A stretch of 64,000 nt of DNA, taken from Pegea sp. RAD2-039 (Eukaryota; Chordata; Thaliacea; Salpida; Salpidae). Made by a program: the position numbers and the translations under genes. Shown here piece by piece: positions 105 through 22,632 of the stretch. The notes under the pieces were generated by a model. The model had not been told where the DNA came from. It saw only the letters and a program-made list of their open reading frames with translations, and searched no databases. The stretch is from positions 682,001 through 746,000 of the forward strand of contig JAQGEQ010000354.1 in the NCBI GenBank assembly GCA_034620365.1, in the 5' to 3' direction. Position 1 is the stretch's first letter, and each line of letters starts with the position of its first letter.

Positions 105-1090
105 AGCACAAGTATAAACACATTCTGATTTGAAAGCGTAACCGGCAGTGCAGGTAATTGCTCCGTTTTCTGGTGGTACTAAAGCAGGCACACATTGAAT
201 TGCTAAAAGATAAAAACATGGTTTGCAAAATCCAAAATTGTCACAATCAACTTACAAATAACTTTCATCGGTCCGCCATATGCAATAAGCCTTGCGTCAT
301 TGCATACATATTCCATTGGTGATTCAAAACCATCTAGTAAATATCCAGGAATTGCTTCAAATGAGCAACTTGCTCCATACACTAACTCAGTTGGACAGTC
401 ACTTATTACATGAGTTAGCGGAGGTGGAAGAATACATTTCTTAACTGGATGAAAAAAGTTTGAATTGAATCACACTTTGAGTTACACAAAGCAATGTAGT
501 CTCAACCAGAGTTAAAAGTAATTATCTAAGTCACTAACTTAATTTAAGGTTAACTAAAACATTAAAATGATTTTATTAGGACATTAAAAGATAATTTTAT
601 TTGAGTTGTATTTAACAATGTGTTAAGCTACAAAATTATTGGTTAAGGATTAAATTTCATATTTCTAACAGTTCATACTTTGACAAATAGGAATATCGTC
701 GGACCATAGTCCACCACGTGTGCAAATGCTAACAGCTTCTCCAACGAGTGAATATCCTGTTTCACAGCTAAACCTGCATTCAGATTGAAAATAATTTGCT
801 TCACTACATCTTATAGAGCCGTGAGGAGGTTCAACGAGTTTACTGCATTTAAGTTCTGAAAAAAAAACGTTAAATGTTTATCACAGCCTCAAACAAAAAT
901 CCTTCCAACATACTCTCACAAAATGGGACATCTCCTGTCCACGATGAATCTTCTTTGCACCGACGCATTGATGAGCCCCGAAGCTTATAACCAGGATCAC
1001 ATGTGTACAAGCAAGCCGAATCAAAGTTGATATCTTCTGTACACTCGATATTTCCATTTAATAAAGCACCGACTTTCTCACATTCAATCA
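105..1090 (-). other. CCP modules 22-24 and the first half of 25
   Basis: Exons 914-1,090, 679-855 and 256-444 each encode a whole CCP in phase 1-1; exon 105-202 (98 nt, phase 1-0) encodes the first half of CCP25, whose second half lies outside the window. CCP22 and 23 are regular six-cysteine modules. CCP24 is irregular: the fourth cysteine is replaced (SFEAIPGY), the final cysteine is absent and the Trp is missing. In CCPs those two cysteines are expected to pair, so one disulphide is lost cleanly. Confidence 0.87.
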
Positions 1091-4000
1091 CTAAGATAAC
1101 AATTTTAAGATAAAGTCAAATTAAATTCTAATTAATTTTTAATAGACTTACTAGTGCAAGTAGCCTCTCTTCCATCATATTCACCATAATCCTGACACAC
1201 TCTAACAGAACTTCCTTCCATCTGGTATCCCTCATTACAAAAGATTCGACATTTTGTTCCGTAAACTGAATCATTATCAGAACACCTGTAAAAATATTTT
1301 TTTTAATTTTTGCACTTTTTTAATTGCTCACAGTTAATTAAATATAGATCTTTTGGTCACCTTAAGTAGCCGTTTTCTGGTTCATTTAAAGGTTCACACT
1401 CAACTATTTGACAAATAGCTGCTTCACCCGACCAGATATGGTCTGCCATACACGTTCTTTGAACACTACCAATCAATGTGTAGCCAATCTGAAAAAATCT
1501 TTTTGTAAAAATATCGATGACATTAAAAAAAAAATATAAAACTTACACCACATGAGAAGCGGCAGGTAGATAAATAGTTACTGTTGTCGGAACAGACCTT
1601 TCGTCCGTTATTAGGAATATTCAAAATTGGACATTCAACAACTATTAGTAGATATGAATAAAATTATTTTTTTTTAGAAGTATTTTTTAATTAATAAATT
1701 ACTCACTGGTACAAATCACTTGTTCTCCAGACCATGTGTAGTCTTCTTGGCATGTTCTAACAGTACTTCCTGTTGAGATGTATCCTTCCTGTATTTTTTT
1801 AATAGCTTTAAAGAATTTATTATTTTACTTTAAACCCAAAGGCGTTTGTGAATCAGCTTGAATTATAAGGCGTATTAAAGGTACATTTAAAACAAAACTT
1901 AATAATAAAAATACTATGGCCTGCTTCGGATGTAAGCAAGGACAGAAATAATGGAGATCCAGTTGTTGCCCGTACATCATGATTTAACTCTTGGCATCAA
2001 CAAGGTTATGCAGCGGAACAAAAAAACTGATGCGGATACGCCCAGCTGGCGTCGCAGGAGCTGTTAGAACGACATTGAGTACAGCAATGAGCTGCCAACG
2101 GGGTTCCAACTTTGGCTTTAAATTTGGAGTTTTACGTCTTCTAGAACCGTTGTCATAAAACTGATTAACAAGGCCCATCTACCCGGGTTTTTTATGGACT
2201 TTTCTTTGTCGTAAATACGTGTTCACCCAGCGACCTTACGCGTGTAGTCACTACAATACGGAAACAGACAAAACCAAACTTATTTACTGATATATTCTGT
2301 TTGAATAGAATACTTTCGTTAACGTGAAACCAGATTAAAAATTTTATTTGTTTTAGATTAGACTTACATCACAAGTAATTGTACAAGTTGAACCATATCT
2401 TGCACTATCACTGCACTCAACAAAAGCATGCCCGACGGATGGTAGAACCCCACAAGAGATCATTGAGCATGTAGTCTTCATTCCTGTCCATAAGCCACTA
2501 TCTTGGCATGTTCGAAGTTCAGATCCAATCAACTCAAACCCTTCCTGTTAAATAAAAACATTAAATCTTAATTATCTCTTTAAAAAACCCACAAACCTCG
2601 CATTTAAATCTACAAACTGAAGAGTAAGCTGAGCCAGCAGAGCAATTTTTGAAGCCATGATCGGGTGGAGACAGGACTGGGCATGTAATTACTGAAAATG
2701 GGAATTTTAAGTTTAGGTTTAAATTTTTCATACAAGTTGCTGATACTTACAGCTACAAATCGCTTCCACTCCAGAAAATAATTTATCAAGTCGACATTGA
2801 CGTTTAGAGCTACCAGACAAAGTGTATCCGTCCTAAAGAATAAAAAGCCATCTTAAATTTAACTATTCAGTTAATTTATCGAATAATTTTTGTTTTTTTA
2901 GAACTAAAGCAATTACGGTTCTGCATTTGCATATTTTACGTTTGTTGGACTTGGTGTGAATTACTAAACTATTATTATTTGAAATTTAATCAAAATTTCA
3001 TGATTTTTTGTATAATCAAAAGATTAAGTTGTAAACTCCATCTTTTAACTTAGATGAACCCTATAACTTAATGAGATTTTAACAACAGCAAAACAACACG
3101 AGCTTTACATCTCTTACTGTTTGTGTATTATATTTTGTATGACTAGACTTATTTCGGTAACTTAAGCATATGAAATTATCTAAAAACTGAGTCACGTACA
3201 TCGCATATCACTGTACATTCTGATCCATACAAGTTACTCTCTGTACAAATAATTCTTCCATTTTCTGGTGTAGATATCACTGGACACTCTATCACTGTCG
3301 AAGAAAAAATAAAACGTTAGTGACCCAAACAGCCAATGTTGTTTTGTTTGAAAGAGTAATGGATGACTTACAGACACAAGTAGCATCTTTTTCACTGGAC
3401 CACTGCCCGTTTTCTTGACATACTCTCACGTTACTTCCCACAAGCTCATAACCAACGTTACAAGTTAATCTACATTGTGTTCCAAAGTTGCTGTCATCAG
3501 AGCATCTAATAAAGATGAATAAAACTTTAATAATAATCAAGAGTATGACTTTGTTTCACCTTATATTACTATTCTCTGGTGTAGAGTAGTCTTCACATGT
3601 TACTATCGAGCATTCAGGCTGAACACCTGACCAAGTACCATCCTCCTGACACACTCTGACGTCATCGTTGAGAAGATTGAAACCGACCTGAATACTCAAA
3701 AGTGAAAACAAGAGCTTAAAGATGGTAAACAGATACTAACATCACACACAAATCTACATGTTGATCCGTACTCAGACCCTCTATCACACACTTTTCTTCC
3801 ATGACTAGGTGGTAATAATGATGCACAAGTTATCACTGCAACAAAGAGACAAAACTATTACTAAAGAATGTGATTCACTATATTATCGTATCGGTGAGTG
3901 TTAGCAAAACTTCGGTAAAGTTATCAATAAATGGCGAATAAAATATTACAAGCTCGGGTTTAATACAGATTAGTAACAAATGTTTAACCAGAAAAGATTT

Positions 4001-7000
4001 TTGAAGAGTAAATTTTTTAACAGCCACAATTCAGTTTATACAAAAGCTTACACGAGCAAACTGCCGATGATCCAGTCCAGCTTTTTATACTTGTACATTC
4101 TCTTTCACTGCTACCTTGTAACTCATAGCCACTCTAAAAGTAATTATTTAAAAATTAGACTTAATTTACCTCCTATGAATATTTTACTGAGTCAGTTAAA
4201 TTCTTACATCACATTTTATTGTACAGATTGAACCATACAGTTCATTCTCAGTACACATCATTTCTCCATTAGCTGGTGCGGATAACACGCTGCAACGAAT
4301 TCCTATAAGACAGAAAAGCCATTTTTATGATACAAATAGATCTAATGATGAATAGTTAAGGTGATGGAGGAAAAGCTTATATACAATTCTTTCTATTATG
4401 TGCTACTGCATTAAAGGCTTTATACTCGACATTTGTTAATCTAAAATTGAGGAAAATTTAAAAATGAGAAACTTTTTGGCAATTTTTGAATGGTTAGTAA
4501 AATAACTTACTGGTACAAACTGTCGCTGGTTCTGACCATTGATGATCAACTTGACATGTTCTAGTCACCGAACCACTTAACTCATACCCTTCCTGTAACA
4601 ATGCAACCATTTTTATTGAACGAAACGTTGACTGTAAGGAGCGAACACCAAATCTTAAGCTTAACCAACCGTGTGAAAATAGTCAGGAAGAAAATTGGAG
4701 TACAAAATCATCTAAAGCATCTTTTATAAGTTAACATTTTTTTTTTTTTGAAAAATTGTTTTATAATTGCAGAACTACGGATAGTATTACATTTTTATTG
4801 AAAAATTATTTAGTATATTAAAGGTTCAAAAGTTTTTTTTAATTATCAGATAATGATAAATTGTTTAATTGACCAAAATAGAAAGTTAGGTTCTATTAAT
4901 TTTAATTATTTCAAAAGTAAATCTTTCAATGCAAAAGTATAAGATATTTTTATCTGTAAATTTAAAGTATGTTTAGTAAATTGTTTCCAGCTGGCGACAG
5001 TCAATGGTAATGAGAAAACTACTAAAATAAGAAAAAAATTTATAGCGGAAAAACATTTAGGAGGTGTAAAAAATAAAAGAAGGACAATTTTCAGGTGCGC
5101 TCGTCTTATTTGAAATTCAGCAGAAAATTGAACCGCTTATTTTGTTTGTTTCTGATATACTTACTTTACAGTAGAAAGTACATTTAGAATTAAAGTCATT
5201 AAATTCGGAACAATCAACGTGGCCATTTTTAGGTGCTTCTAGCTCGATACATTCAATTCCTAGACAAAAAAGTTGATTTGGTTAAAACTGAAAAGAGTTG
5301 TTCAACCACTAGGTGTCACTATAACGTATCTAAGGTTTTAGATTGAGAGATGATCTAGCAGATTGTTTCATTTTAAGATTGGAGTTTTAGCGATATTTTT
5401 GTGACTCTTATCAAATCTAAAAGTAATATAAAAACTTACCAATTAAAATATGCGCCTAATCTGAGCTTAACTAAATATTAAATTTTCGGTATTAATAATT
5501 TCTTGGCTCAAAAAATTATTCAATCAAGATAAACTTTCAGTAGAAGCTTATGAGAGTTACAAAATTGATTACAAGAGATTCTTTGAATCATTTGTTTCTT
5601 CAGTTTTAAGTTCTATCTTCTGGAATAGATATCGGACTGTAAACTGTTTTCTTAACTACCAATCATCAAACCTAAGCCTTTTCATTTGGTGTAAATCCAG
5701 TTTCTTAACATTTATAAAATCGTAGAAAATATTACAGAAGGAATCAGATTCAGATTCTTATCACTTTGTAATTACAAATATTTTGTTTAAAGCTTTAACC
5801 TTTTTTATGTTCAAATATTTATAAAATTGTCTGTGAGACTTTTTCAGTATTTGAAAGTTTTTTTTGTGAGTACCAAACTTACTTTCACATGCTACTTCAG
5901 CACCAGTCCATACTCCGGAAGCCAAACATGTCCTAACACTCTCTCCAATCAAATCGTATCCAAGATTACAATTGAATTTACATTGCGACTGATAATTAGT
6001 ACCATCTGAACATCTATACATCAAACAATTCAATTATTTAAATTAAATAACTATTTTAAGTTAAAACAATTCAATTATTAGCAACTGTCTAATTATCATG
6101 ACGTCATCACCTTTTCTTTCCATTCTTTGCCGCGGTCAGGCGTGGACACGTCACGATAGAGCAAACAGTTTCTGTTCCGGTCCATCGATGGTCTTGGTCG
6201 CAGATACGAACCTTAGAACCTTCTTGAGTGTAACCAACCTAGGTACCAGAAAGTTAATGACTCGTATATTTGTGATTGTAACTAACGTTACAAGTGAAGT
6301 GACATCTTGAAGCATATTCATTGTTGTTAGTACAGTTTTTAACACCGTGGTTAATAGACTTCAATTCAGGACAGAAAATCTCTGCAAAAAACTTTATTAG
6401 TAAGAAAGTTAAGCTCTATTGTAATCGATTGAAACATTTTTCTCGTCTGCTTGCCTCTGGGCAACATTGATGATGAACAGTTAACACATCGCAGACTACT
6501 TTGTCTGGTACGTGATACTTGGTTTAAAGCTGAAAATCGTACTAAAACGAAGCGAAGCATAAAATATTTAAACTATCACCTAAAACTGGCGGACAGGTAG
6601 AACAACTTTGCTGGTAGCTAGTTCGAAACTTTTCTGATACAAGAAATAAACAACGCTACTTTCAAACGTTGCTGCTAATATCAATCTATTTCTTTGAAAT
6701 GTTTTCAGGGTTTGTGGTTAAATAAGCGAAACTAACCTGCTAATGTTATTTACTTTAATTTTTAGTTAGAGTTTAACAAGCAATGTCTGATTTTTTTGCT
6801 ATTGATTGTAAAATTTTTACTGGTTGCACAGTTCATTATGATAAAATCGAAAAAAATATTTTCTAATGTGATTTTATCAACTAAACAATTGTTACTTTAC
6901 AATAATTTAGTCTTTTTATAATGAAATTTGTCGGAATTTAGTTCTATGCCTTATAAGAACAATAGCTTCTGATTGTACACTAAAGATTTTGGTAACAGTG

Positions 7001-10000
7001 CAATTTCTTAGTTGATAATTCATACAGTAATGTTTGTGGCTTACGGTCTGTTATACAAGTTTTAAAGCTTAAATATTTTTGTGGTTTTACAATAAGCCAC
7101 TCACAAAGTCAATTTAAGAAAGTATAGAAAATATTAAAACTAACTTGTACATATAGCTTGTTCTCCAGACCAAGTTTCATCTTGTTGGCAGATTCGCTCT
7201 GAGCTTCCACTAATTTCATAACCTTCCTACAATCAAACAGAAGGTAAAAATCATATTTTTAATACTTTTGTTGAATTTAACAATCTGTGGAGTTATTAAT
7301 AGTACCTTGCATCGGAAGTAACATGCTGAATCGTAAAAATTGCCATCAGAACATGACATGGAAGAATGATCTGGAGTTTCTAACTCTAAACAAGTCACTC
7401 CTAGAAAAGGTTTATCAGATCTAAGAAAGTTTTTTGGATAAAACCAAGAGTAAATCCTAAGGATTTCTCCGAGCCATTGTAAGAAAGTTTGAATTTAATA
7501 CTTTTGTATGTATGCCAGAGTTATGTTTTTGTGTTTAGTTTATTTTAAATATAAAAAAAGTGATTTTAAATGTTAGTTACTTTCACAAACAAGATCTTCT
7601 CCTGAAAACTGCCCATTTCTGCCACATACCCTTGTAGTATCACCTGACTTCATTTTGTAACCAGGCTAAAAGAAACAGTTTTAGCTAGTCCTCTCACAAG
7701 CATCATATAAGTTGATGATTTTATCACCTGGCAGGACACAGTGCAGACTGAACCATAATCATCTCCTCTAGTACAAGCGATCATTGTATTTGGCATCTCG
7801 TCTGGTAGAGGACATGTAATTCTCACGCAAACCGGAGCAGAGCCAGAAAATGTGTAATTCAACCCACATCTCCGAGTGACGTCACCACCGACAAGCTCAT
7901 AACCTTCCTATGATATCCAAACACTTGAGAGTTAACAAATTGAGACTATTTTGATAAAACTCACGTAACAAACTAAAGTACAATCTGTCCCATACACAGG
8001 AGGACCGGACGATTCTTCGTCTAAGGAGTTGGTACAGTCATACTGACCATTTGCCACTGGTTTTGGTCGTACACATTGGATGACTGTAGAAGAAGCAAGT
8101 AGTCAAACTAAACGTGACGTTTGGAGAAGTTTCAGAAATAATTACTGTTAAACATAACTACCCACTAGCATCTGTCGGCTCAAAAGATTTATACAAAATC
8201 GGTTTAAATTAAATAAAACCTTAGATCAAGCAAAATTATTTCAATAATCCGAAAATGAAATGATTGTGCCGCACGCGACTGTTAACGTTTAAAGAAGAAG
8301 ATGAAGAAAGAGCTTCGATAAACAGAAAGCCTGGGGCATATGCTATTATTATCTAGCACAAGACTTGAAATCCGTTTTTGGGTGGGGTTTGCCTTATAAT
8401 ACTGATGAGTTCAAATTTTTTACAAAGCTCAATCGGACTAATCGTAAGTCACCTGACTTTCTGCACACTCTTGTGCACGCGTTGGACACAATACAGAAAG
8501 CAGGATTTACAAGAAATTCATGGGAGGTCCTTGAATGAAAGATGCAAGAATGTTGCTTCACTGGTTTTTATATTGTTTTGGGTTCGCTGTGATGTTTGAA
8601 ACTGAAAAACCACTTAATTTGTTTGGTTTTAAATTCGATGGGATTAAGGATATACAGTAACACGTGGTTACTTAGATATGTCGAAATTTATTCAAATAAA
8701 AATAGGCAAAAAGTAAAAATTGTTTGATTTTCTGCAAATATTTCTATTATTTTCAACAAAAATTATTTTGTAGAAGTAAAAATAAACACCTTATTTGTCG
8801 ATGAACTTGAAAAACTAGATTCAGGTTTGTAGAATATCATTTTAGGTAAGCTATAAACATTTGATTAATTAAAAAAATTATGGGTTGAATTTTTTAAGGG
8901 TTGAATAATAGAATTTATCTTTTATATGTTGTAAAAAATTTGGAGCTTAAAAGTAAAGCACGAAAAAGCTACTTTTGGTAAAAGTGTTTCTTTTAAATTA
9001 AGTTTATCACAAAGAAGTTATTTTTTGGATAAATCACATTAAATGAAGACAACATTTTGATAATTATTCGGTCATTTTTAGAAAGTTCAAGCTTGTATCT
9101 TCAGAGTATTATCTATAACTGATATCTGATAAAATTATAAATTACCAAATCATATGACGGTAGATGTTTAGTCTGATATGGAGAAAGAGAAAATGTGGTC
9201 AAAATATGAATTGTCTATTCATAGAGCACACTCAACATTTGCCGCATATGTAAGATTTAAATGAACGAAGTTACTTGAATCTAAAAGCAGATAAAGACTT
9301 GCAAAACGTGGCATACGCCTCGATAGTTTTTTTAGCAGCAGTGCAGATAGCTCAGACAGTTTTGAACGTTTAAAAAAGCTAAAAAAACGTAAAGTAAGAA
9401 CAAGAAAAAGGAGTATACGACAAAAATGTGTGTGTATGCACGTTGTATGCTCGATTCGTACACTTGCTTTCGATACACCACTTTTCTATAGCGTTAAGTA
9501 ATTTGCTCTTCTTTTGGTGTTTCTCTTCATCTTCTTCCTTTGTGTGCAAAGTGAACTGCATTTTGTGATCACTAACTTTCGTCTACGTGGCTCCTTCATA
9601 TCTTTTAATAGTAGGATTTAAATCTACTGCCTAAGACTGTTAGCAGACTGATTGATAAATATAAAATTCATCATTTGATGTCTAAATTTCTCGAGAAGGA
9701 TTCTAAGATTTAAAGTCTTAGATGCCATTTAGAATATTCTTAAATACTTAATAAGAACCATAAAATTGTCACAAAACTAAACAAACAGAAAAAGAAAATA
9801 TTTGTTTTTCAACTTCGAAAATATTTATCAATTGATTAAAGTTTACTTTTGCAAGTGATCCCATCATCTGTAAACGACCCATTATCTTGACACACTCGTC
9901 GTCCCTCACGTCTCCCAGTCGTCTCATATCCAACATCACACACCAGAGTGCATTCAGACTCGAACTTGCTCTCTTGTGTACAATTAAACCGTCCGTTTTG

Positions 10001-13000
10001 GATCTCTGGTAGATCCGTGCATTGAATCTCTGGAATCAAAAAATAAAAGATATTAAGACTCTTTCATCTTTTATTAATTAAAGACTTCCTATCATGTCTA
10101 TAAGCTGATTTTGCGAAGCTACAGGGTGAACCTGATACCACTGAGAGTTCTTGTCGATACAGACACTCATGTAATGACAAGGACTCTAGTGGGTCCAGGC
10201 TACCATTAATACAACTAATCGAAGAGACCGGCAACCCTAACTCAACCTCTTAGCCCATACAGTGCAGAAGAAAACTGAAGCAAGCTTACTAATGACTGGA
10301 GAAGAAGCAGATGAAGTTGCTAAGCTGGCTTGGTGAGTTACATAGACGAAGAAAAAAGAAGAAGAAAAAAAAGCCAAGTTTTTTTGACAGCACAACCAAG
10401 TTTTACCGCTTAAGCTTTTTTACCAGTCACGCTTGAATGAACCACGCACAACAAACAGCAGCGTGCAGCGCACACACACGACCGTCGATCAACACACACA
10501 TGTCTCGTCTCTTTCTTATGACGAAACAAGTCTAGAAGCCAGTGGCTCGTCAAATAGATTTTCGACTCGAATTGGAGCCCACCCGACGGACTTTAATCTC
10601 ATGAATTTCTGTATATCTGCCCCCTTTGAACCTCTGTCTACTGGAGTCTGTATTAATTACGCTTCGCTGTTCCCTACCAACTCCAATACTATACTGTGAT
10701 TGTCTACAAGGCGACGATTTTTGAATCATCTGCTTCCTGCTTCCGTAAACAACAGTTAGAGTTTAGTTTGTGTTTGTGACACTGGAAAGTTGAGTTTGTT
10801 ACGCACCGCTGCGTTTTTGTAAAAATCATTAAAATTTATTAACTATTTTATCATTTTTTTTAGTATTTTAATGAAATTATTGTCATACAGAGAAGGCATC
10901 AAAGGGTATTCCCTCGCTAAAAGTAGCTGGTCAAGTCGTCTGTCACGTGCTAGCAACTTTGCAATTCAAGCCTTCTGCTTCAGTGCAGACGGTCAGACTG
11001 CTTCAAGTTTTTTGATTCTTTTTTCAACTTTAAGATTCGCGGAAAGACTCGCTTCGGGCTCATGAGGGGAGCAGACGTTGCAATTGTGAACTCATGCGTG
11101 CAAGATTAGTTTGAATTGATGCAAAGGGAGACTTTCTTTGTAACACCCTCTAACGGCGACCGATTTGCTTAGCGATTTGATTGGTTAATAAAAAAAACTC
11201 AACTTTTTCTGTTGAACTTTGCAAATCTCGAATTTCAATTTTTCAATTTAATTAAATCGAACAAAATATTTTTACTTTTTAAATTATTTTAGGAAGTTAA
11301 AAAAGAAATTTGTAGAATGAAAAAAATTCAAGTTTAACCCCTCAAGTAACTCGAGCTATTCTACTGATAAATAGCTACCTGTCGAGCTAAATAGATTGAT
11401 TTCTTCATTCTAATCTCATTTCTTTGAACACAAAACTAAGCTGATATATTTGACTTTAGCAACTTATCTCAAACATAAATCATATTTCATATCTAAAAAT
11501 CTAATCATAAAAATAATAAAAGTTTTTTATCAGATTTATTTATCTATTACTCAACAAAAAGAATCTAATGATTTATAAAAATCTTATAAACTGGACTTAC
11601 TCGTGCAAGTTGCAACAGTTCCAACCCATTCTCCTGATTCATCGCACTGAATCTCAGTTAAACCATCTGATTCATATCCATCATTACAGGCAAGGTCACA
11701 GAAAGAAGCATATCGGTCATCTTCAGTACATTTCAGGGCTCCATTTGAAACCTCGGGTAATGGTCCGCAAGTAATCACTAAAATATTTTATGATTTTTAA
11801 TCTTTGACATTCTAATTAAAGTTTAAATTTAATCATTACAAAAAAAGTTTTTCTAAAATTGTTAATTGTTTAATTAAACCAATAAAAATATTTTACTTTG
11901 AAGAAGTGTTTAAATTACGATTTAGAATTAAATAAACAACTCTAAATTACAAGTTTAAAAGTAGAAAACTAATTAAATTAAAATATTTAATCTAATTTAC
12001 TAAGTTTAAGCTTTAAAATATATCTACATCAAATTCTCATTTCATAACTTCAAATTAGTTAGCCACTAAATGGCGCTAAACAACTACAAAACCTACAGCA
12101 TTCAAACCTAAAAGCTCTAAGAAAAGTTTCAACTAATCAAATATAAACTAATAAAACAAACAAAAAAAGAAAGGATTTGATACGTTCGCAAGAAGGAAAG
12201 GTTGACGACCAAATGCCGGGCGAAAGCTCGCCCTCACAGACAGATATCCGGTCGCCTATAACTTTGAGACCAGTCCGGCATTCAAACGTGCATACACTGC
12301 CGTGGTAGTTGAGGTCGGTACAGTTTCGCATCAGATTGATGTCATATTCATCTTCTACATCATCACAGGTGATTCCTATGCAAGCGGAAGCTATAAGTGA
12401 GCTGCTACGACATCCATTATCACAGAATGTCGATAAAAGATTATTTAAAGGAGCGCACAGTCACGTGATTGCACACGTGAGCGGCGAGAAGGTGTGACGT
12501 CATTAGACGACTAAATAGAACTTGTTACAGTTCGTCAATGCAACTACATAAAAGGAGATATCACTAGATGGCGTGTTTACATGAAAATGTCCTAAATGCA
12601 GGAAGAAGATAAAAGACATACTAAGGCAAGCTGGAGGATAGATGTTGGTCATCTCATAGGTCCCTGACTGGGAGCAAATTGCAGATGTGGAGCCATCTAA
12701 CTCGTAGCCGATATCACAGGAGAAATCACAACGAGATCCAAAGACTGCCTGTCCTTGACACTCGATGAAGCCATTTTCCAGAGGTTCCGGCTCCAAGCAT
12801 CTCACTTCTACGCATGCAGTTGAGAGATCAATCATTAGCAGCAGTTATCTTTTTTACAAGATTGCTAATGTAAGAGAGCAAATCGGACATGCAAAAGTGG
12901 TTTCTGATGATTATGGCCTAGTTCAAAATCACGTGACATCATGCAGCATGCAACACTAGAGGAGAGTATTGATCATGGAGTGGTTAGTGATTACATTGAA

Positions 13001-16000
13001 AGAATTAACTGGCGAGCTCAGGTTAAAATTTAAATTAACTTTTTCTTCTTTAGTTTGCTGACAACACTTATTTAGAACAAATTACAACGAAGATAGACAA
13101 AAAAGCGGAAAAAGTAGTGTTTCTAGACAGCATAGGTAAAAATTAGTCAAAGTAAACAACCAATCAAATCAATTTAATCGCCATGGCAACACAGCTGCTT
13201 GCAACAGCTAGAAAGTTTTCTTACGTCGACACACAGGAACCGAGCCTGACCAAGTGCCGTCTCCTTGGCAACCGATGACTTCACTGCCGTCCAACCAATA
13301 CCCATCATTACAGGAAAAATGGCATTGGGACATGTAGAAGGCACCGCGGGTACATAGCATATGGCCATCGGAAAATTGAATGTCGATGTCCTTGCACTTT
13401 GATCCTTACGAAATTGACAAAGCGTCCACATTTGCATATTAAAGACTACGTGACGTCACATGACGTCATTATGATCTCGAAAAAGCGCGATTTCAAAGCG
13501 ATAGTGACGTCATAATGCAGAAAGCCTTGAGTCTATTTTCAAGACTACCAAGAAGAAGAGCAAGCAGAGGGTTTTTGAGTTGTGGGAGACCTAGATATCG
13601 GAGGATACTCGGAGAAGCCTGGAAAAAAGGATAAGGATGCAACAACTCACTTTCACACTTCAATTTGCCGGATGACCATTTCCCACTCTTCTCACAAGTC
13701 CTTGAAACATCTTGAGCGATCTGGTAACCTTGGTTACATATCAAAGAGCACACACTCCCAGCATTTGCCTCGTTTGAACAAGATAGGCCTCCATGATGAG
13801 GAATCGTCAGCGGATTACATCCGGCAGCTAAATAAGAAAATTGTTAAAAATTTTGCTTTTATAAAATTATTGTCATATTAATAAACTAATAACGTCACTA
13901 GGTGTCACTATTTGCCCGCTTCTAGATGGCAGATAATAGTCACGACTCAAGTTTAATTATAACTAACTTATACCAGTAGTTTTCCTTTAACACTTCGTAC
14001 CGAAACAAGTTTTAAGATGTCAGTTTATCTAATCATATTTGATGCAGAACGAATTTGTAAGCAAAACTCTTTATCTTAATCTCATTTAAAATTTATTTAT
14101 TGGGTTTCAAAGAAGTTAATCGCATTTTTTTATAATGTGGTTGTAATAGAAGTTTGTGCCAAAATTATCACTCGGTAAACCAAATTGAATTTAATCGATG
14201 AATTTAATGCTTAAGTTAGTTTGTATCAGGAATTTTGCTGTATTTAAAGTAAAACCAAACTAGATATGTCTTCAACCCTAACATTGAATTAAACTAATAA
14301 TTTTTCAGGTTCATTAACTCTTTCAGTGACTTCAGCAAAATTCAAGAATTAAACCTTCAAAGGTATTCATACAGTTAAAGTGAAAAGCATATTTGATGTT
14401 TGTATTTCCGAAGTATTTCTAATAGTGGTAAGTTAAAGTAAAGTGCTTACGAAATGATTAATTAGAAATTTGACTTCGCGTTTTTAATTACAAAAAATAT
14501 ATTAAAAGACTTCCAAACTTAAATATAAAAGTAAATAGTTTAACAGAAAACTTATTAAACCAAATAAAGCAATTCATATTAGCAAAATTTATAAGTCAGC
14601 AAAAGTCTGAAATTTAGTCGATAATATTCCAATATAATTGGATTATTTTGTTTGTGATGTTTAGATTAAAAGGTTTGATAACAGCAGCTTTAAGCAACTT
14701 AAGAGATTTTCTTTCATTCAAAATCTTAGTTTGAAAGTGGTATTGATAAGTAGTCTTATTGATAGCATCAATCATAATAAGATTATTGTACGAGAGAGTT
14801 ACCGGTACATATAAGTATAGGAAGCTTTATACAAAAAAATTACTAATCTTAGAGAAATTATAAAAACTCTTAATCGAATTTATCTCTGAAAGAAGCTTAA
14901 AAGAGTTTTAAGTTTGATTTTATCAATCTAATTTTCAAAAAACAATAAATAACTTACAAATACAAGAGGGGACTTGCTCAATATCCCATTTTCCGCCTTT
15001 CAAACAAGTCCTTACTAATTCCTCTCCACCAACACTTAATTTCCAATCAGGAGCATCACAACTGAATGTACAAGTCACTCCTGTGATGATACTTTCACTA
15101 GAGCAAGACATACTTCCATGCAAAGGAGCAGGACGCTTAGGACATAGAGCTGCAAACATAGAATTACAAAATTTAAACTTCAAATAAAATGTTGAAGTTG
15201 TGATAACTATTTGTAAAAATAACTTTTACTAAAAACTCATTAGATAAATTATTTCATTTTTTTAATTTAGTTTTATGTCTAGACTTTGGAATTATTCTCT
15301 TAACAGAATGTCTGCTTCTTTTTTCTAAAACTTTGATTTTTTACTAATAGTTAAAGAACTTACAAGTGAGAAGGCCTTGCGCCTTAAACAAATACGGGGC
15401 AAAAAAAATCTGAGCACATGTCACTTAAGGTTTAAGCACATAACATAACTTCAAACTTAAATTCAAAAAATTCCAAGTATTGTAAATAACTAGGCTTGGC
15501 TCTCATCAGATAGCTTTGAAGTGCTTTAGCAAAAAAAATTGAAATCTCAATTAACTTGTGGAATATTTTCATCTTAAAACTTTTAATCTTTCGTTCTTAG
15601 AAACTGTTTTCGAGATCTAGTGGTCAACTTATATTTAAAATGCTTACATTTTATTATTTTAAATGTTTAATTTAGTTTCAAAATCATTGGGTTTACAAAA
15701 TAAAAAAGAAACAGAGATGGAATTCCAGTAATTTCCAACCATACATTGCTAGTTCGGTTATATTGACTGCAATTTTAACTTCAATTTTTAGTGATGTCAT
15801 TTTGTGAAAAATCTTTTGATTTTACAAAATCTTTTGATTATCTATTGAAAAAAGATGAGGTAATAGTCTGACTATAGGAACAAACCTCACATTTTTTTAC
15901 AATACCAAAAGATGCAGTCATTGAATGAGTTTTTTTTAAATTACACTATTACTGCAAACCAACAATCATGACGTAATCTCTTATAAAATGCAAATTGAGT

Positions 16001-19000
16001 TTGAGAATTACTCACTTATAGTGGAGCAAACTTCTTTAAGAAGATGACTTTTTATCTCCTGAATATCATCAAAGTTTTCAACCGATAGCACATGATGATC
16101 GACTGGAGGTGAGGCTATCGCTTCAAGTTCTGATCTGTTAAAATCTTCATGAATACTGTTTGCGAAGATTAATTGAATCTTTTACCGAAGAGCAGCAGCA
16201 ACACCGATTGAGAAGACTTCTACTTGAGCGTCTCTTAATCTTCTTGCAGGTTCATCCACACTATCCAAGATTGATTCGCCGTCAGTGATAATAATAGCAG
16301 TCTTGTGAACATCTGGAAAAACATTTGGATATTTTACAATCGAGTTGATAGAAAAGTTGTTGAAAAATTATTTGTATGCAGAACGTGTTTAGCTGACATA
16401 AAATCATTTTCATATCTTTCGTTTGTTGTAAGCAAAGAACTTAAACTAAGTGAAATAGTAAACAGCCTGTGTGTGATTTTCACTACAAAGTTAACAAAGA
16501 CTCAAATCAGACAACAAATAAAAATCACAAAATTTCTTAAAGAAACCACTAAAAATATGAAGAAAATCAAACAGTGTTTTTTTCCTGTATGTTATTAGTA
16601 AAAATCAAAAAAAAAACGTAGTCTTTAAGCTTAAATATTTAAATATTTTCTATGTTTTTAACCTCATATGAGAGCTGTATTTGGTTTAAAGAAAAATATT
16701 TTATTTACTAAACTGAAATTTTTAGTTTGTCAATCAATATTTTTGTATATATGTACAACATTAACCACAATAATGTTAAAATCATTAATTTACTTCTAAA
16801 AATTTGCAATTTTAGTTTATTTGTTAAATAATATTCTTTATTTATTTATAATAATTTATTTATAGCCTAATAGTAATAATATAAAATCAATCAGATTAAC
16901 AAGACTTTAACATTTCAAGATTTGTTCAAGTTGTAGTTTAAAATGATTGAAATTTAGTAATATAAATTTGAAATAAAATTGATATACTAAATTGATTTAA
17001 GATATGATCGTTATATTGAACAATTTATCCGAAAAATAATCATTTGTAATTTTAACCCAATTTTGGCTATTTTTGAATTTCACCTTATTAATAATGACAA
17101 AAATAATTCAAAGAAAAGTATGTTCCAGAAACAGACTAAAATAGGTCTCACTACTCAAAAATTCTCTAAGCAAATAAAGTCTAATCTATCTCAATAAAAC
17201 GGTGATTCTGTGTCGTGGACTCTTAACCACCGTTTATACTTATTCAACCATGGAGTATTATCTCCATCGGAAACGAAAAAAAGCACAAACCAAAAGATTT
17301 ATATATAAATCAAATTTAACAACAGAAAGCGCCCTACATACTTCAATTTATGGTATGCAGCTAGAAATGAACCAAATCTTAAGCTTGACATAAGATGAAA
17401 GCAACAAAAATACAGATTATCTTCATTATATTTTCTTGGCTACTGCATAATATTAACTATCCAATTTGTTTGTTTATAAAACGATTAGGAATAAGTTTTA
17501 TCTAAAGTGCTTCAAATCTTCAAATTTTAAATTAAGAAGTTTTAAATATTGGATAAAATTTTTAGTTGTAACTTAAGCATTTTGTAAACCTCTTCTAGCC
17601 CCATATGATTGTGAGAACATTGTTGTTCGGATGTAGTCTATAGCTCTTCCAGTGGCAGTGTTGCCTCCTTTATACGGCATTTCATTAATAGCTTCTACTA
17701 ATGCTTCCTTGGTAACATGCTGGTTCAAGGTGAATTCAGTTCTGTAAAAATAAACAATTTCAATCACTGATTTTGACATTTATACACTACTTTATCAAAT
17801 ATTCAAAACTTTAGAATAAAATAGGCTTTTTTAAAAGCTGAAAGTTAGTATTTATATTCTAAAAGTAATCTTAATTTCGTCAAATATTAAAAAAATTTTG
17901 ATATATTGAAAGTTTTGACAAGACTATTGAATATAGCTATTTTGAAGAGCTCTTAGACACAATTAGACTTATGGGAGAAAAAAATTGTTTTCTTATCTAA
18001 AAACTGTCATTTCAATCAACAAAACTTCCCAAGTTTAAAACCAGTAGTCATGATGAAATGAACATTTCTTGCAAACAAAAGTTATGCATACAAATAAGAT
18101 ATGATTTTTCGGTAGTTAACTCGTTATAAACTATTCGACTTTTAACGTTATTTTTGTTTCTGCTTCTTGAAATTAGAAGCATGTGTTTGCTTTTTACAAT
18201 TAATCACAGTTGAACCGTAACTACCTGACATTTTTAGTTTTATTGCAAGTTTCACTTATAATTGCTGCATGCAAAGCTTGAAATAGACTTATTAATTGCT
18301 CCATAATTATAATATATCATTAAGTTCTTACACCACACTTATTTAGTAAAAGTAGTAAACATCTACTTAAAAGCAGAAGCTGAAAATATAAATAAATCTA
18401 AAATAAACTGTATATTTTTTCTAACAGTCACTTAGTTAAGGTTCACCTTGGGTCATCTGAGTATTGAGCCATTCCTATGAGGACACTATCGAAACCTATA
18501 GTAAAAGCATTAACCAAATCTACTAAAAATTTTTGCATCTTTTTAAAGTTTGATGGTCCCACACTCCAAGAACCATCAATTAAAATGACGATATCAGTTT
18601 TGTCAGCCTTTTTGCAATCCTTTATAACGGTTCCTCCTCCTTGAGCTAAACCAATTTCAGTTGTTTCTGTAAGAGACAACAACAAATTGTATTCTGTAAA
18701 TAACTTTATTTTCAGCTTTTTAATTGAAAATTTCTTTATTGGTTTTTTTAGCACTTACATTTTTGTGTAGCTTCCTTATCACTTATAGTTTGTTTGATAC
18801 TTACATCAAATATTTATCTTACAATAAAGACAATTAATAACGAAATTTTTTATGCTTAGATTGAATTATTATTTTAGTAATAGTTAGTTTCAGCAGTTTA
18901 TGCAATCGACACAAACAGTTTCACTTATACAAGCACATGCACTGATTGATAGGTTTTATATAAAGTGTCAGCATTTTATTTATGAATAAATATAGTAAAC

Positions 19001-22000
19001 TTGCAAATCTAATTTTGGTAAAATAATCCAATTTTGTAACTTTTAATCTTTATCAAGAGGATTATACAACAAATATTCCATAACTATAATTTTAGAATCA
19101 ATGTAAATAGTTTAAGAAGCTTTTAATAAATATTTTATTTGTTTGTTTTTTAATCAAGCTGTTTTGAACAAATTTTTTTTTACTAAAAAAGTTACAATGC
19201 AAAGAAAACAAGTTAAAGCAGAAAAATACATTCAAATAATTTCAATGGCTTTTAAAATTTCGCTTTGGTTGCTTTATAACTACCAAGCAATATTGGTGTG
19301 ATTACTTTATCATTATAGTTTAGCTTTATGTTTCAATATTTAGCTTTATACAAGTAGCTTGAAAATTTGCAGAACATTTTGAATTACACGTTTATATATA
19401 GGATATAAATTTTATACAAACAATACCGCTAGCCATACCACCTCATGAGTATTAGTAGACAGTTGTTTGTACACTTGAACTGTGTAAGGTTTTTATCTAG
19501 CTGCCCTAAGCATTATAAATTTATGTAAAGGAAATAGTTATTGTAATAAAATTAAGATAAAAGATTATATTTGATGGTATTTAGCTGCATAAATGCATTT
19601 GTTGTGAATGCTTACTGTTTAAAATACTCAACAATATTTCTTACCTATGTCACCTTCTGAAACACAAAATGTTTATCGTTTTTAATTTTTTTAGTTGGAA
19701 AGATTTTAGTATTTAGCTAGCGTAGTAGATTATTGATAAATATGATGAATTAAATTCATAAAGTATAATCAAAATTAGTATTTACTTTAAGTGTTTGTAT
19801 AAGTTTTAAGAAGTTTTTTAATTAGCTATTTCTTTTTTTAATAACTATCAGTTCATCTTTGCTGTGGTGTAAAGTTAGAAATCAAGTTTTTATTAGGTTA
19901 GTTGAGTAAAACCAATGACATATTAAACCTTGTTTTAAAACAACAAACATTTTGTCGAACAATTTTTAATAAATCACTTTTGCACCTGTAGTAGTGACCC
20001 TTGAAATAGCAGGATCGCTGTATTGAGCATGAGTTCTTGATCTAACTTCAACTTGATATCTTGTTGAAGGATGAAGACTTCGAAAAGTGAATGATGTTGA
20101 GTAACTATCAAGTTCAATTAGTTGAGAGTCATGCCCATCTCCTTTAATCAATGTTAGACGATAACCAATAATTTCACTGGTCCTGAAAATATGTCAAAGT
20201 TAGATTTAACTGCAACCAGCTTTTTGTATGTTTGATTCTCAGCATAAAATCGAAAACTGAACTATTAAAAATGGACAGATACCCGAAACTGTTCCACTTA
20301 TCAGCTCACTTGTAACTTAGATTTAAAAAAATTCCATTGAATAGTTTAATTGATTTTATACAAACTCTTCAAGTAATTGAAACTTGTTAATGAGAAGACT
20401 TTTATGGTGACAAAGAATTCGGTAGAAAGGAGAAATAAAATAAAAAGCTTGCTACAAAATGATCACATGACTGTACGCTCGATTGCTCAAGATGGTGATA
20501 AGTCACTCAGTATTTTAATGTAGGAAAGAGTCATCTAACACTTGCTGATCGATATTACATCAGAATTTGGTTACTGATCGACCACCTCTACTTATGTAAT
20601 ATGTATAAGTCAGGCCCTCTTGTAATAGCAAACAGAAAATGTTTACTCTTGAAAAAGGACTCATGTGTGTAATTTAGAACTTGAAGGGTCTTAGCATTCA
20701 TGATTGCTCAATGATAGAAGAGTTTTAAGACACAGAGGCAACAATTTCTGAAGTCTTCAAGCAGTAAAATCTTTGAGTGTAACTCAAAATTCAATGTAGA
20801 ATTTTGATTATCTGAGCTGAACAGTACTTTGCGTTAAACTATTCATAATAAAAAAATTTCTAGAAAATAATTACATTTTAGAGATGTATTTATTAAGTTC
20901 TTACTTCTTTTACAAAAAAACAACTCAACGAAATTGCTCAAATGATTTGTGGTTGAATTAAAAGGTGAGAAACTATTGTAAAATGTTATGTTGAAATCTT
21001 GCTTCCATGTAAAACTGATGTGTCTTTGGACAGACACGCCTATTATTTTTTTGTTGATTGATCATCAATTGAAAATTTATTTTTATTATTCATATTTCAC
21101 AATATGATTGCAAGAAAGTTAGAAACTTTTTAGCACACTAGAATCAGTAAAACATTACGATGAACTCTTTGTGAAAACTTTTAATCTATTTACAACTTAT
21201 CCACAAAAATTTGCTAAAACAGCTTCTGTGCCCACTATACTAAATCAACATTTACCGAACATTAAGACTTCGAAAGTAAGTTTGGTCTCGTTTTTTGGTT
21301 AGCTCATTTTCAAATATTATAAATTCTTTCAGCAATTTTTTTTATTTTCAAAACAAATTCACTTTTGATCCCATGAAATCCATGTTTGACGCATGTATGC
21401 ATTTTTGTGTTGGAATTTAAACATTACATTACCACAATTTTTGAAAACAAGTTTAAAGATCAACTAACCGACGTGGATGATCCCAGCTAATTGTAAAAAA
21501 GTCCGGGCCTTTTTGGGGAAATTGAACTCGCCTTGGCTTCATTCCTGTAAAGAAAAACATTCACAGAACTAAAAATACTTTTCTATAATCAATCATTTAA
21601 TAGTAATAAAAAGATTTTTTATCTTGCAGGAAGATCAGAGTGAAATTTTTGTGCATGTAGAAGCAAAGCTATTTAAATAGTTGAAGAAAAAAAGCGACAA
21701 ACAACAAAATCAAGATGTTTCTAAGTAAGGATTATTGACGGGTGATTAAATATATGTAACTGACTGAAAGATGACTTGACGATAACAATAATCTTTAGCT
21801 GATGGAAGCTTTCAACTACATTCTTTCAACAGTTATTTAATATTTTTGTATAATTTGAACTTTGTAACTTTAACAAAGCACCAATGTTTAAAATAAAAAG
21901 ATCAGCTTTGATCTGTTTCTCTTTAAATAAATTAAAAAGAGTCTTTAAGCTCTTAAAATATATCGCGTACGTTTAATTTGTAGTTTTAAAATTGGGCTTT

Positions 22001-22632
22001 TACACTAAAGACTTCTTGTCAGAATTGATTTGCTTCAGAAGGTATTTCACACCTTAAAAGGGAAACAGTTTTATGCTAGCAAGAATTTGTTAAATTCTTT
22101 TAAGAGATTATCATAGTAAAGCCTTTGCAAACAATTACATAATTGACAGATTTGTAAAAGTCTCAAAATGTCCTGAGTATAAGAAAAGGTAGTGGATACT
22201 TTGCAAGATATGTAAGAATTGCAGAAGATTTTATCGGTAGATAATTTAATAAGTTTCACATTACAATAATCTCAGACAATTAAAGAAAATTTATGAAAAT
22301 TTTGAAGTCTGGGTGTGGCATAAACATTGAAAGTATCTTAATCATGTACACACATGTGAAAAAGATTAAGCTCAGATGAAACGGTCTTGAAAAATTAAAA
22401 TAATTGATCTCTTCAATTTGAAATCTATCCAAAAATATCGAAATAAGTAATATTATAACTAAAAAATTAATTCGAAAAAATAAAATTTTTTTCTTAATTT
22501 CTTAATTACCGATAAGAAATAAAAATTCACAAAACCGATAATCTAACCTGCAGCTCTTCTTCGTTGACAATCAACTTCTTGAAAATATGTTGAGACCGCG
22601 ACAAGAATGATAATAAAAAGTCTAAGCTTCAT
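105..22632 (-). CDS. Large secreted FN3-VWA-multi-sushi (CCP) protein, 3' end outside window
   Basis: Forty-two coding exons joined on GT/AG borders with matching phase give 1,810 codons without a stop; the gene continues past the left edge. Order of modules: signal peptide (residues 1-22), one fibronectin III domain (about 30-120), a micro-exon, one VWA domain (about 135-325), then 24 complete CCP modules and a partial 25th. This order recalls matrix and adhesion proteins: polydom/SVEP1 also joins VWA to CCPs, and FACIT collagens join FN3 to VWA. No EGF, pentraxin or collagen repeat is seen in the window. A secreted or cell-surface recognition role is inferred. The start at 22,632 is chosen because it opens a clear signal peptide and nothing coding fits upstream. 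Nearly all CCPs have six cysteines, as in selectins. No transmembrane segment is reached. Module identity is secure; the exact function is unknown. Confidence 0.9.
1152..7400 (-). other. CCP modules 10-21 built from recurring exon cassettes
   Basis: Twenty-one exons encode twelve six-cysteine CCPs. Cassette A is 95 + 82 nt (one CCP): 7,306-7,400/7,145-7,226; 5,165-5,259/4,511-4,592; 4,208-4,302/4,052-4,133; 3,200-3,294/2,751-2,832. Cassette B is 95 + 128 + 131 or 134 nt (two CCPs): 6,287-6,381/6,111-6,238/5,883-6,013; 3,741-3,835/3,560-3,687/3,372-3,505; 1,547-1,641/1,361-1,488/1,152-1,285. A variant, 2,597-2,691/2,368-2,544/1,707-1,788 (95 + 177 + 82), looks like two A cassettes with the intron between them lost. 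All first halves end in phase 0 after the fourth cysteine; B adds a phase-2 intron right before the second cysteine of its second CCP. Typical second halves read EGYELSGS and TCQ, then W-S/T-G. Confidence 0.9.
1950..2200 (-). repeat. Interspersed repeat, family R1, copy 1 (intronic)
   Basis: This block in the intron between CCP exons 1,707-1,788 and 2,368-2,544 matches 57,553-57,775 over several stretches, such as GGTTATGCAGCG, GTCGCAGGAGCTGT and TTGGCTTTAAA. On the minus strand both copies can be read with the shared peptide VVLTAPATPA followed by a shared SLHNL/PLHNL stretch. It is richer in GC than the flanks. It could be a fragment of a transposon coding region or a non-autonomous repeat; I cannot assign a class. 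Exact ends are unclear. Confidence 0.75.
7581..8083 (-). other. CCP modules 8-9, three exons
   Basis: Exons 7,965-8,083, 7,728-7,907 and 7,581-7,665 encode two CCPs. The phase-0 introns fall inside each domain, just after the fourth cysteine. The middle exon carries the second half of CCP8 and the first half of CCP9. CCP8 has an insertion rich in Ser, Glu and Pro between its second and third cysteines, and Phe where the usual Trp stands (NYTFSGS). This is the point along the gene where structure changes from one exon per CCP to split CCPs. Confidence 0.88.
8084..9846. other. 1.8-kb intron between CCP7 and CCP8; nothing coding seen
   Basis: No exon of either strand with fitting phase was found. 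A block at about 8,270-8,620 is less AT-rich than its surroundings and has a 73-codon open frame on the plus strand, but no recognisable domain; it may be an old repeat. The remainder is AT-rich intron sequence. Confidence 0.5.
9847..15149 (-). other. CCP modules 1-7, one exon per module
   Basis: Seven exons each encode one complete sushi domain in phase 1-1: 14,958-15,149; 13,651-13,827; 13,225-13,404; 12,622-12,807; 12,184-12,375; 11,601-11,777; 9,847-10,029 (177-192 nt). Each has six cysteines and most have the Gly-Tyr and Trp landmarks, for example NQGYQIA and GKWSSG in CCP2. The exon at 13,225 uses an acceptor ending GTAAG, which is weak but keeps the frame. Symmetric one-module exons are the classic unit for shuffling and duplication. 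Introns at 13,828-14,957 and 10,030-11,600 exceed 1 kb; the second holds a base-composition anomaly listed separately. Confidence 0.9.
10090..11170. repeat. GC-richer intronic block, probable degraded mobile element
   Basis: Inside the intron 10,030-11,600 the base composition shifts: runs such as GCGTGCAGCGCACACACACG (about 10,460) and a GAAGAAG-rich stretch (about 10,345) differ from the AT-rich flanks. Minus-strand reading around 10,905-11,060 gives a peptide with short stretches that look coding (LLARDRRLDQLLLAREYPL) but with internal stops. No transposase or reverse transcriptase motif is visible, so the class is not assigned. This is an inference from composition and broken reading frames. 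Confidence 0.4.
16016..18666 (-). other. VWA domain with complete MIDAS, four exons
   Basis: Exons 18,447-18,666, 17,590-17,741, 16,186-16,312 and 16,016-16,134 (220, 152, 127 and 119 nt) encode one von Willebrand A domain of the collagen/matrilin type. The metal-ion site is intact: DxSxS in VILIDGSWSVG, the Thr in YKGGNTATG, and the Asp in IIITDGES. The family uses this site to bind ligands through Mg2+ or Mn2+. Phases are 1-2-1-2-1, and the last three exon lengths equal those of the small VWA gene at 38-40 kb. Introns of 705, 1,277 and 51 nt separate the exons; the 1.28-kb intron (16,313-17,589) shows no feature. Confidence 0.92.
19645..19656 (-). other. 12-nt micro-exon in the linker between FN3 and VWA
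   Basis: A 12-nt stretch (AAGGTGACATAG on the minus strand) is flanked by a good acceptor (GTTTCAG) and a good donor (GTAAGAA). It is in phase 1 at both ends, as are the exons on either side, and adds Glu-Gly-Asp-Ile to an acidic/Thr linker. Because it is symmetric, the message stays in frame with or without it, so it could be alternatively spliced. Support is splice-site quality and phase only; RNA data would settle it. Confidence 0.6.
19986..21544 (-). other. Fibronectin type III domain, two exons (21,469-21,544; 19,986-20,182)
   Basis: Two exons (76 and 197 nt, phases 1-2-1) encode one FN3 domain. The conserved Trp of strand B is in FTISWDHP, the C-strand motif in IIGYRLTL, and the Leu/Tyr pair in LHPSTRYQVEVRS. 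The domain closes with VTTTG before the micro-exon. FN3 domains act as adhesion or spacer modules. The 1.3-kb intron inside it (20,183-21,468) contains nothing I can identify. Confidence 0.88.
22548..22632 (-). other. First coding exon: signal peptide of the FN3-VWA-CCP gene
   Basis: The exon encodes 28 codons plus one base. It begins MKLRLFIIILVAV, a basic start followed by a hydrophobic core, and is followed by a likely cleavage site near the Cys at residue 22. A basic stretch (QRRR) comes next. The donor is GTTAG and the exon ends in phase 1. The peptide sends the protein to the secretory pathway, which fits its disulphide-rich downstream modules. Confidence 0.85.

Follow-up and report, generated by a model that had tools for sequence, protein, structure and literature searches.

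The sequence analysed here (the window) is a stretch of 64,000 nucleotides from Pegea sp. RAD2-039, C46:682001-746000, where C46 denotes the contig JAQGEQ010000354.1 that carries it; window positions are written with the prefix w, w1 being C46:682001. The genome that we searched comprises 105.7 Mb in 387 contigs, and 250 kb of fetched loci have a GC content of 30%. For the gene model, 60 kb of contig to the left of the window were added, exon chains were assembled with a finder of our own, and boundaries were set by hand. The complete gene lies on the minus strand and has 66 exons in unbroken phase, with 65 introns that are all GT-AG and a single stop. Its start codon is the ATG at w22632 and its stop codon lies at w-4354 (C46:677646), with an AATAAA about 330 bp beyond it; the corrected model encodes 2761 residues. 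The window holds 41 exons (w105-w22632), one fewer than the 42 of the initial annotation, whose continuous phase is retained; the other 25 lie to the left, at C46:677646-681966. The modules follow one another as signal peptide, FN3, VWA1, 33 CCPs, VWA2, Gly-X-Y runs interrupted by two non-collagenous inserts, and lastly a basic tail (Table 1).

Table 1. Parts of the gene in window positions (negative values lie left of the window).
Part	Position	Strand	Basis
Exon 1, start codon and signal-peptide-like leader	22548..22632	-	ATG, hydrophobic leader by eye, phase-1 donor
Exons 2-3, single FN3, residues 31-113	19986..21544	-	Pfam fn3 E=1.2e-11; phase-1 introns both sides
Exons 4-7, VWA1, MIDAS DGSWS + T + D	16016..18666	-	Pfam VWA E=4.2e-49
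Exons 8-40, CCP1 to CCP24	256..15149	-	Gene model, CCP profile
Exons 20-22, CCP11-12, 95/128/131 nt, first alike triplet	5883..6381	-	Exon lengths
Exons 27-29, CCP15-16, 95/128/134 nt, second alike triplet	3372..3835	-	Exon lengths
Exons 35-37, CCP20-21, 95/128/134 nt, third alike triplet	1152..1641	-	Exon lengths
Exon 41, first half of CCP25	105..202	-	Gene model
Rest of CCP25 to CCP33	w-34 to w-2162	-	Gene model, Pfam
VWA2	w-2218 to w-2948	-	Gene model, Pfam
Collagen region and stop	w-3001 to w-4354	-	Gene model, Pfam Collagen

One boundary was revised. The acceptor of exon 7 was moved such that a 30-bp intron became one of 51 bp and the exon now spans 16016-16134: the product, now shorter, agrees in length with VWA2 and the upstream VWA, and 30 bp is less than any other intron of the gene measures (at least 48 bp). 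The Pfam results for the first 762 and the last 692 residues, the CCP cysteine counts, the CCP and VWA identity percentages (other than that between VWA1 and VWA2) and the intron scan refer to the uncorrected model, which has seven extra VWA1 residues and shifts later positions by seven.

Controls set the gene apart from chance. With a profile of 37 CCPs taken from three other contigs, stop-to-stop frames of the gene region gave 45 hits (E<=1e-3) on the minus strand; the plus strand, w23001-64000 and each of 20 dinucleotide shuffles gave none. As an exon chain, the coding strand scored 1387, the opposite strand 275 and five shuffles 129-156, with a finder that was in part trained on this gene. 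In the first 762 residues, Pfam recognises fn3, VWA and Sushi (E=2.6e-44); in the middle of the protein, Sushi alone passes the cut-off; the last 692 residues match Sushi, VWA and Collagen. A cEGF match inside the CCP array stays below threshold (22.8 bits against a cut-off of 26.6). The signal peptide, FN3, VWA and CCPs of the initial annotation are confirmed in position, on the minus strand. Rfam at gathering scores has no match in the window, and a COX1 search for a mitochondrial contig returned none.

Both VWAs carry the residues of a MIDAS-type site (DxSxS, T, D) and are predicted to bind metal: the letters read DGSWS...GGNTATG...TDG in VWA1, which had already been called MIDAS-competent, and DGSWS...GGNTKTG...TDG in VWA2. 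The two domains are 46% identical. Upstream of the gene, at w39187-40631 on the minus strand, a stand-alone secreted VWA gene consists of a leader and one VWA with MIDAS letters; tblastn found no FN3 in it. Its VWA shares 48% of its residues with VWA1 and 36% with VWA2, and the gene is a tandem relative.

The 33 CCPs, placed with a profile of their own, mostly lie one residue apart. They are encoded by single exons, by split exons or by exons common to two neighbours, and a phase-1 intron marks 27 of the 32 CCP-CCP joins (none at 8/9, 11/12, 15/16, 18/19 and 20/21). All but one show a six-cysteine pattern, 30 with exactly six cysteines and two with seven, and in 32 of the 33 an extra cysteine pair sits ahead of canonical Cys2. 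The claim of at least 24 six-cysteine CCPs in the window stands for the number of modules, CCP1-24 being whole and CCP25 half present, and falls short by one for the cysteines: CCP24 (w256-444) lacks canonical Cys2 and Cys4, leaving six cysteines in 23 of 24, while its exon and splice sites are intact. Canonical Cys2 and Cys4 pair with each other in CCPs. A CCP model from 13 window exons has E-selectin as its top Foldseek match, equalled in Z by CD55 and Crry; on this model, the repeats are predicted to be six-cysteine CCPs, that is, a CCP fold with an extra cysteine pair before Cys2. Six-cysteine CCPs are also common in arrays on contigs C57, C25 and C247, and this abundance means that the type is not special to the gene.

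On average, the 33 CCPs are 34% identical to one another and 28-33% identical to 42 CCPs from five further clusters. The closest pairs are CCP14-17 (53%), CCP16-21 (52%) and CCP15-18 (50%), and a 70-nt DNA repeat, 74% identical, is common to the exons at w1701 and w7139. Together with the three exon triplets of 95/128/131-134 nt, which we take as probable traces of block duplication, these likenesses point to duplication within the array, and the CCP spacer seems to have grown in this way.

Extension by about 4.4 kb to the left, where the initial annotation had proposed to look for a transmembrane segment or further modules, adds the rest of CCP25, eight further CCPs, VWA2 and a collagen region. 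Past the window edge, VWA2 begins at 2.2 kb and the collagen at 3.0 kb, joined by introns of 50-65 bp. No clear membrane anchor was found. A 19-residue stretch at position 1832 has a mean hydropathy of 1.89, above the usual cut-off for such an anchor; it straddles CCP25 and CCP26, and was taken as a non-anchor because the border and the cysteines of these modules fall in it.

The chain passes from VWA2 into Gly-X-Y sequence within about 20 residues. Four runs of at least four triplets (2506-2523, 2577-2636, 2672-2734 and 2737-2751) comprise 52 triplets, which is short for a collagen stem, and the stop follows 10 residues after the last run. Pfam assigns Collagen to this C-terminal part with E=4.6e-20. 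The statement that the protein is built without collagen is true of the window and ceases to hold past its edge. The last cysteines, at 2491, 2501 and 2503, lie ahead of the first collagenous segment, with a Cys-Gly-Cys immediately before the first run and none after 2503. Of the non-collagenous inserts, that between the first and second segments has a best PDB match at E 0.013, taken as chance, and the helix-like one between the last two has no Pfam match.

Do all these modules belong to one protein? The introns at the borders of FN3, VWA1, the CCP array and VWA2 (1, 3, 7, 51 and 55) are all in phase 1, which favours the single secreted FN3-VWA-CCP protein of uncommon module order proposed initially. 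At the 3' end, the introns between CCP33 and VWA2 (55 bp) and between VWA2 and the collagen region (52 bp) are so short, in a gene with a median intron of 65 bp, that these parts should share a transcript. Introns longer than 700 bp (1-5, 7, 8, 13, 14 and 19) all lie in the 5' half, where a shorter or separate transcript may be conceivable. The joins between FN3 and VWA1 (intron of 1319 bp) and between VWA1 and CCP1 (866 bp) are predicted from phase and from a scan of introns of at least 200 bp for alternative signal-peptide exons, in which introns 4, 13 and 33 yielded weak candidates and introns 7 and 8, by the criteria set, none. It is quite improbable, in our judgement, that two genes have been falsely joined across a long intron such as 7 or 8, one for a short secreted FN3-VWA product and the other for a CCP-VWA-collagen protein. 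Introns 3, 5, 7 and 8 measure 866-1319 bp, read-through beyond exon 7 is halted by a stop after a few codons, and the gene at w39187-40631 shows that short VWA genes exist here; against this stand the phase-1 continuity across the join and the scan result for introns 7 and 8.

To place the architecture, we compared it with known module combinations. In FACIT collagens such as XII and XIV, an N-terminal part of FN3 and VWA modules is followed by interrupted Gly-X-Y sequence and a short C-terminal tail. The Pegea protein likewise has FN3 and VWA in its long N-terminal non-collagenous stretch, with a VWA close to the collagen, short inserts between the Gly-X-Y segments and a short C-terminal tail. 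In collagens XII and XIV, however, the spacer consists of FN3 repeats, whereas here it consists of 33 CCPs. From CCP30 to the C-terminus, Pfam returns VWA, VWA_2, vWA_SIBA-E (below cut-off), Sushi and Collagen, and no TSPN or LamG ahead of the collagen at E<=0.001; the two cysteines of the COL1/NC1 junction are also missing, given that the last cysteine is at 2503. The layout resembles collagen XII with CCPs replacing the FN3 arms. In collagens VI and XXVIII, VWAs flank the helix on both sides. Here, too, a VWA adjoins the triple helix, and the best PDB matches by sequence include collagen VI chains, but no VWA follows the helix and CCPs are present. The C-type lectin and EGF that precede the CCPs of selectins are absent above the Pfam cut-off. 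PMC5612238 describes high levels at metamorphosis for the Ciona savignyi genes annotated as collagen alpha-6(VI) and alpha-1(XXVIII). PMC3390340 describes a VWA in the Oikopleura house protein oikosin 35 and CCPs among the oikosins, not necessarily in the same protein.

An N-terminal VWA with a long CCP array is shared with polydom (SVEP1), and we weighed whether the gene could be a true polydom ortholog with lost modules. Polydom modules named in PMC12549020 are ephrin-receptor-like, HYR, EGF and pentraxin. A Pfam search of the whole protein in four pieces (E<=0.001) placed HYR, EGF and pentraxin nowhere above cut-off, which extends the initial remark on missing EGF and pentraxin to the complete chain, and the gene has an extra FN3, a second VWA and collagen that polydom does not. 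A polydom-like gene with a VWA, a cysteine-rich part, three CCPs and HYR lies elsewhere, at C42:403001-411000; its partial VWA is 28% identical to VWA1 and 20% to VWA2. With the module set missing and a separate polydom-like gene in the genome, we rejected this reading, which we regard as extremely improbable. A VWA with many CCPs is insufficient to name a gene polydom.

Long six-cysteine CCP arrays that end in a C-terminal VWA occur at three other loci of the same genome: C8:1803001-1810000 (gene at 1805.6-1810k), C38:496001-503000 (gene at 496-500.8k) and C57:1002.9-1019.5k (gene at 1003-1019k). Pfam confirms the one on C38; the start of the C57 VWA was judged by eye and has no DxSxS motif. 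No FN3 or collagen was seen in these exon chains. Of the matches listed in a search with the collagen part, none falls on C8 or C38, and those on C57 are confined to 943-973k. The VWAs of the C8 and C38 arrays share 47% of residues with one another and 26-31% with VWA1 and VWA2; a six-row VWA tree, in which one branch of three is starred, is used for this pair alone.

The initial observation was right yet incomplete; with the gene completed, the reading shifts from polydom-like without collagen to collagen-tailed FN3-VWA-CCP-VWA. Most probably the protein is a collagen-type matrix linker of an unusual kind, not polydom. What is read from the DNA is the exon chain, the module order, the MIDAS residues in both VWAs, the six-cysteine CCPs and the Gly-X-Y runs, and the collagen stem combined with two VWAs with MIDAS letters points to a matrix bridging molecule. 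We consider it probable that a single gene encodes a secreted, trimeric, collagen-tailed matrix protein whose CCP arms and VWA heads bridge or space fibrils and cells. One transcript would give one protein without a membrane anchor, a chain of about 300 kDa with the layout SP-FN3-VWA1-(CCP)33-VWA2-COL-NC-COL-NC-COL-basic tail. Three chains would join via the collagen runs, aided by the Cys-Gly-Cys and the helix-like insert. With the stem in the matrix, and each CCP being 3-4 nm long, three CCP arms of roughly 100-130 nm would carry the FN3-VWA1 heads far out. There, the VWA heads may bind a ligand via metal, either matrix collagen or a cell receptor, and the molecule would bridge fibrils and cells or space them, the role ascribed to collagen XII and its FN3 arms.

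It appears rather unlikely that the protein is a soluble molecule of the defence or blood system. In that reading, the collagen stem would gather the CCP arms into a multimer, on the pattern of C4b-binding protein or collectins, with a C3-like protein, microbes or blood cells as the ligands of the CCPs and VWAs. The CCP model fits complement regulators no worse than E-selectin. By its title, one study cited in PMC5612238 reportedly places a Ciona FACIT collagen in haemocytes in inflammation. The protein, however, has no protease or lectin module by Pfam, and its six-cysteine CCPs recur in many other arrays of the genome. A Botrylloides CSMD3-like multi-sushi gene marks blood cells according to PMC12212465, but the second module is ambiguously named there; it is likelier to be CUB than VWA, because CSMD3 is a CUB-sushi protein. 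According to PMC9265791, the Ciona sushi protein vCRL1 probably acts in the blood system and is uninvolved in self/non-self recognition at fertilization. The latter point weakens the idea that the gene encodes a polymorphic self/non-self recognition protein, as earlier proposed for vCRL1 itself, as does the want of a clear membrane anchor; although CCP-rich loci are numerous in the genome (at least 150 scored matches), such a function seems very improbable. The complement-like or allorecognition role first suggested for the gene finds no positive support, and the collagen tail favours a matrix role. We also hold it unlikely that the gene represents a class of tunicate non-fibrillar collagens, collagen-XII-like with FN3 arms swapped for a duplicating six-cysteine CCP rod, that acts as both matrix tether and surface complement regulator, for example in the tunic or at wound sites.

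The gene, preferably read as a matrix linker, shows how a chordate matrix protein can be assembled by phase-1 module shuffling. If expressed, it would test whether CCP rods can take over from FN3 rods in forming the arms of a matrix molecule with a collagen stem. Among the papers listed in a search of open-licence literature, none describes this architecture, which is no proof of its being unpublished.

Several further loci were observed. At C247:466.4-473.3k, a ricin-type lectin exon precedes a six-cysteine CCP array, with a tandem-repeat frame ('DIVLMTSYAS') close by. Among animals, the pairing of cellulose synthase with a GH6 domain marks tunicates; CelA-like exons at C14:71914-72770 (E 2e-29 and 1.5e-4, below the bacterial cut-off) lie 1.7 kb from a GH6 exon on the same strand (C14:74494-74718; 27.5 bits against a cut-off of 27), an adjacency used to place the genome among tunicates. 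A spliced-leader pattern gave 0 exact matches and no support for a rotifer, a negative that by itself rules nothing out. A dispersed repeat has 76% identical copies at w1995-2125, inside intron 33, and w57590-57720, and a translated piece near 1013.9k on C57 resembles it by eye. Exon-like frames at w58033-58576 (minus strand) resemble a DDE transposase, likewise by eye.
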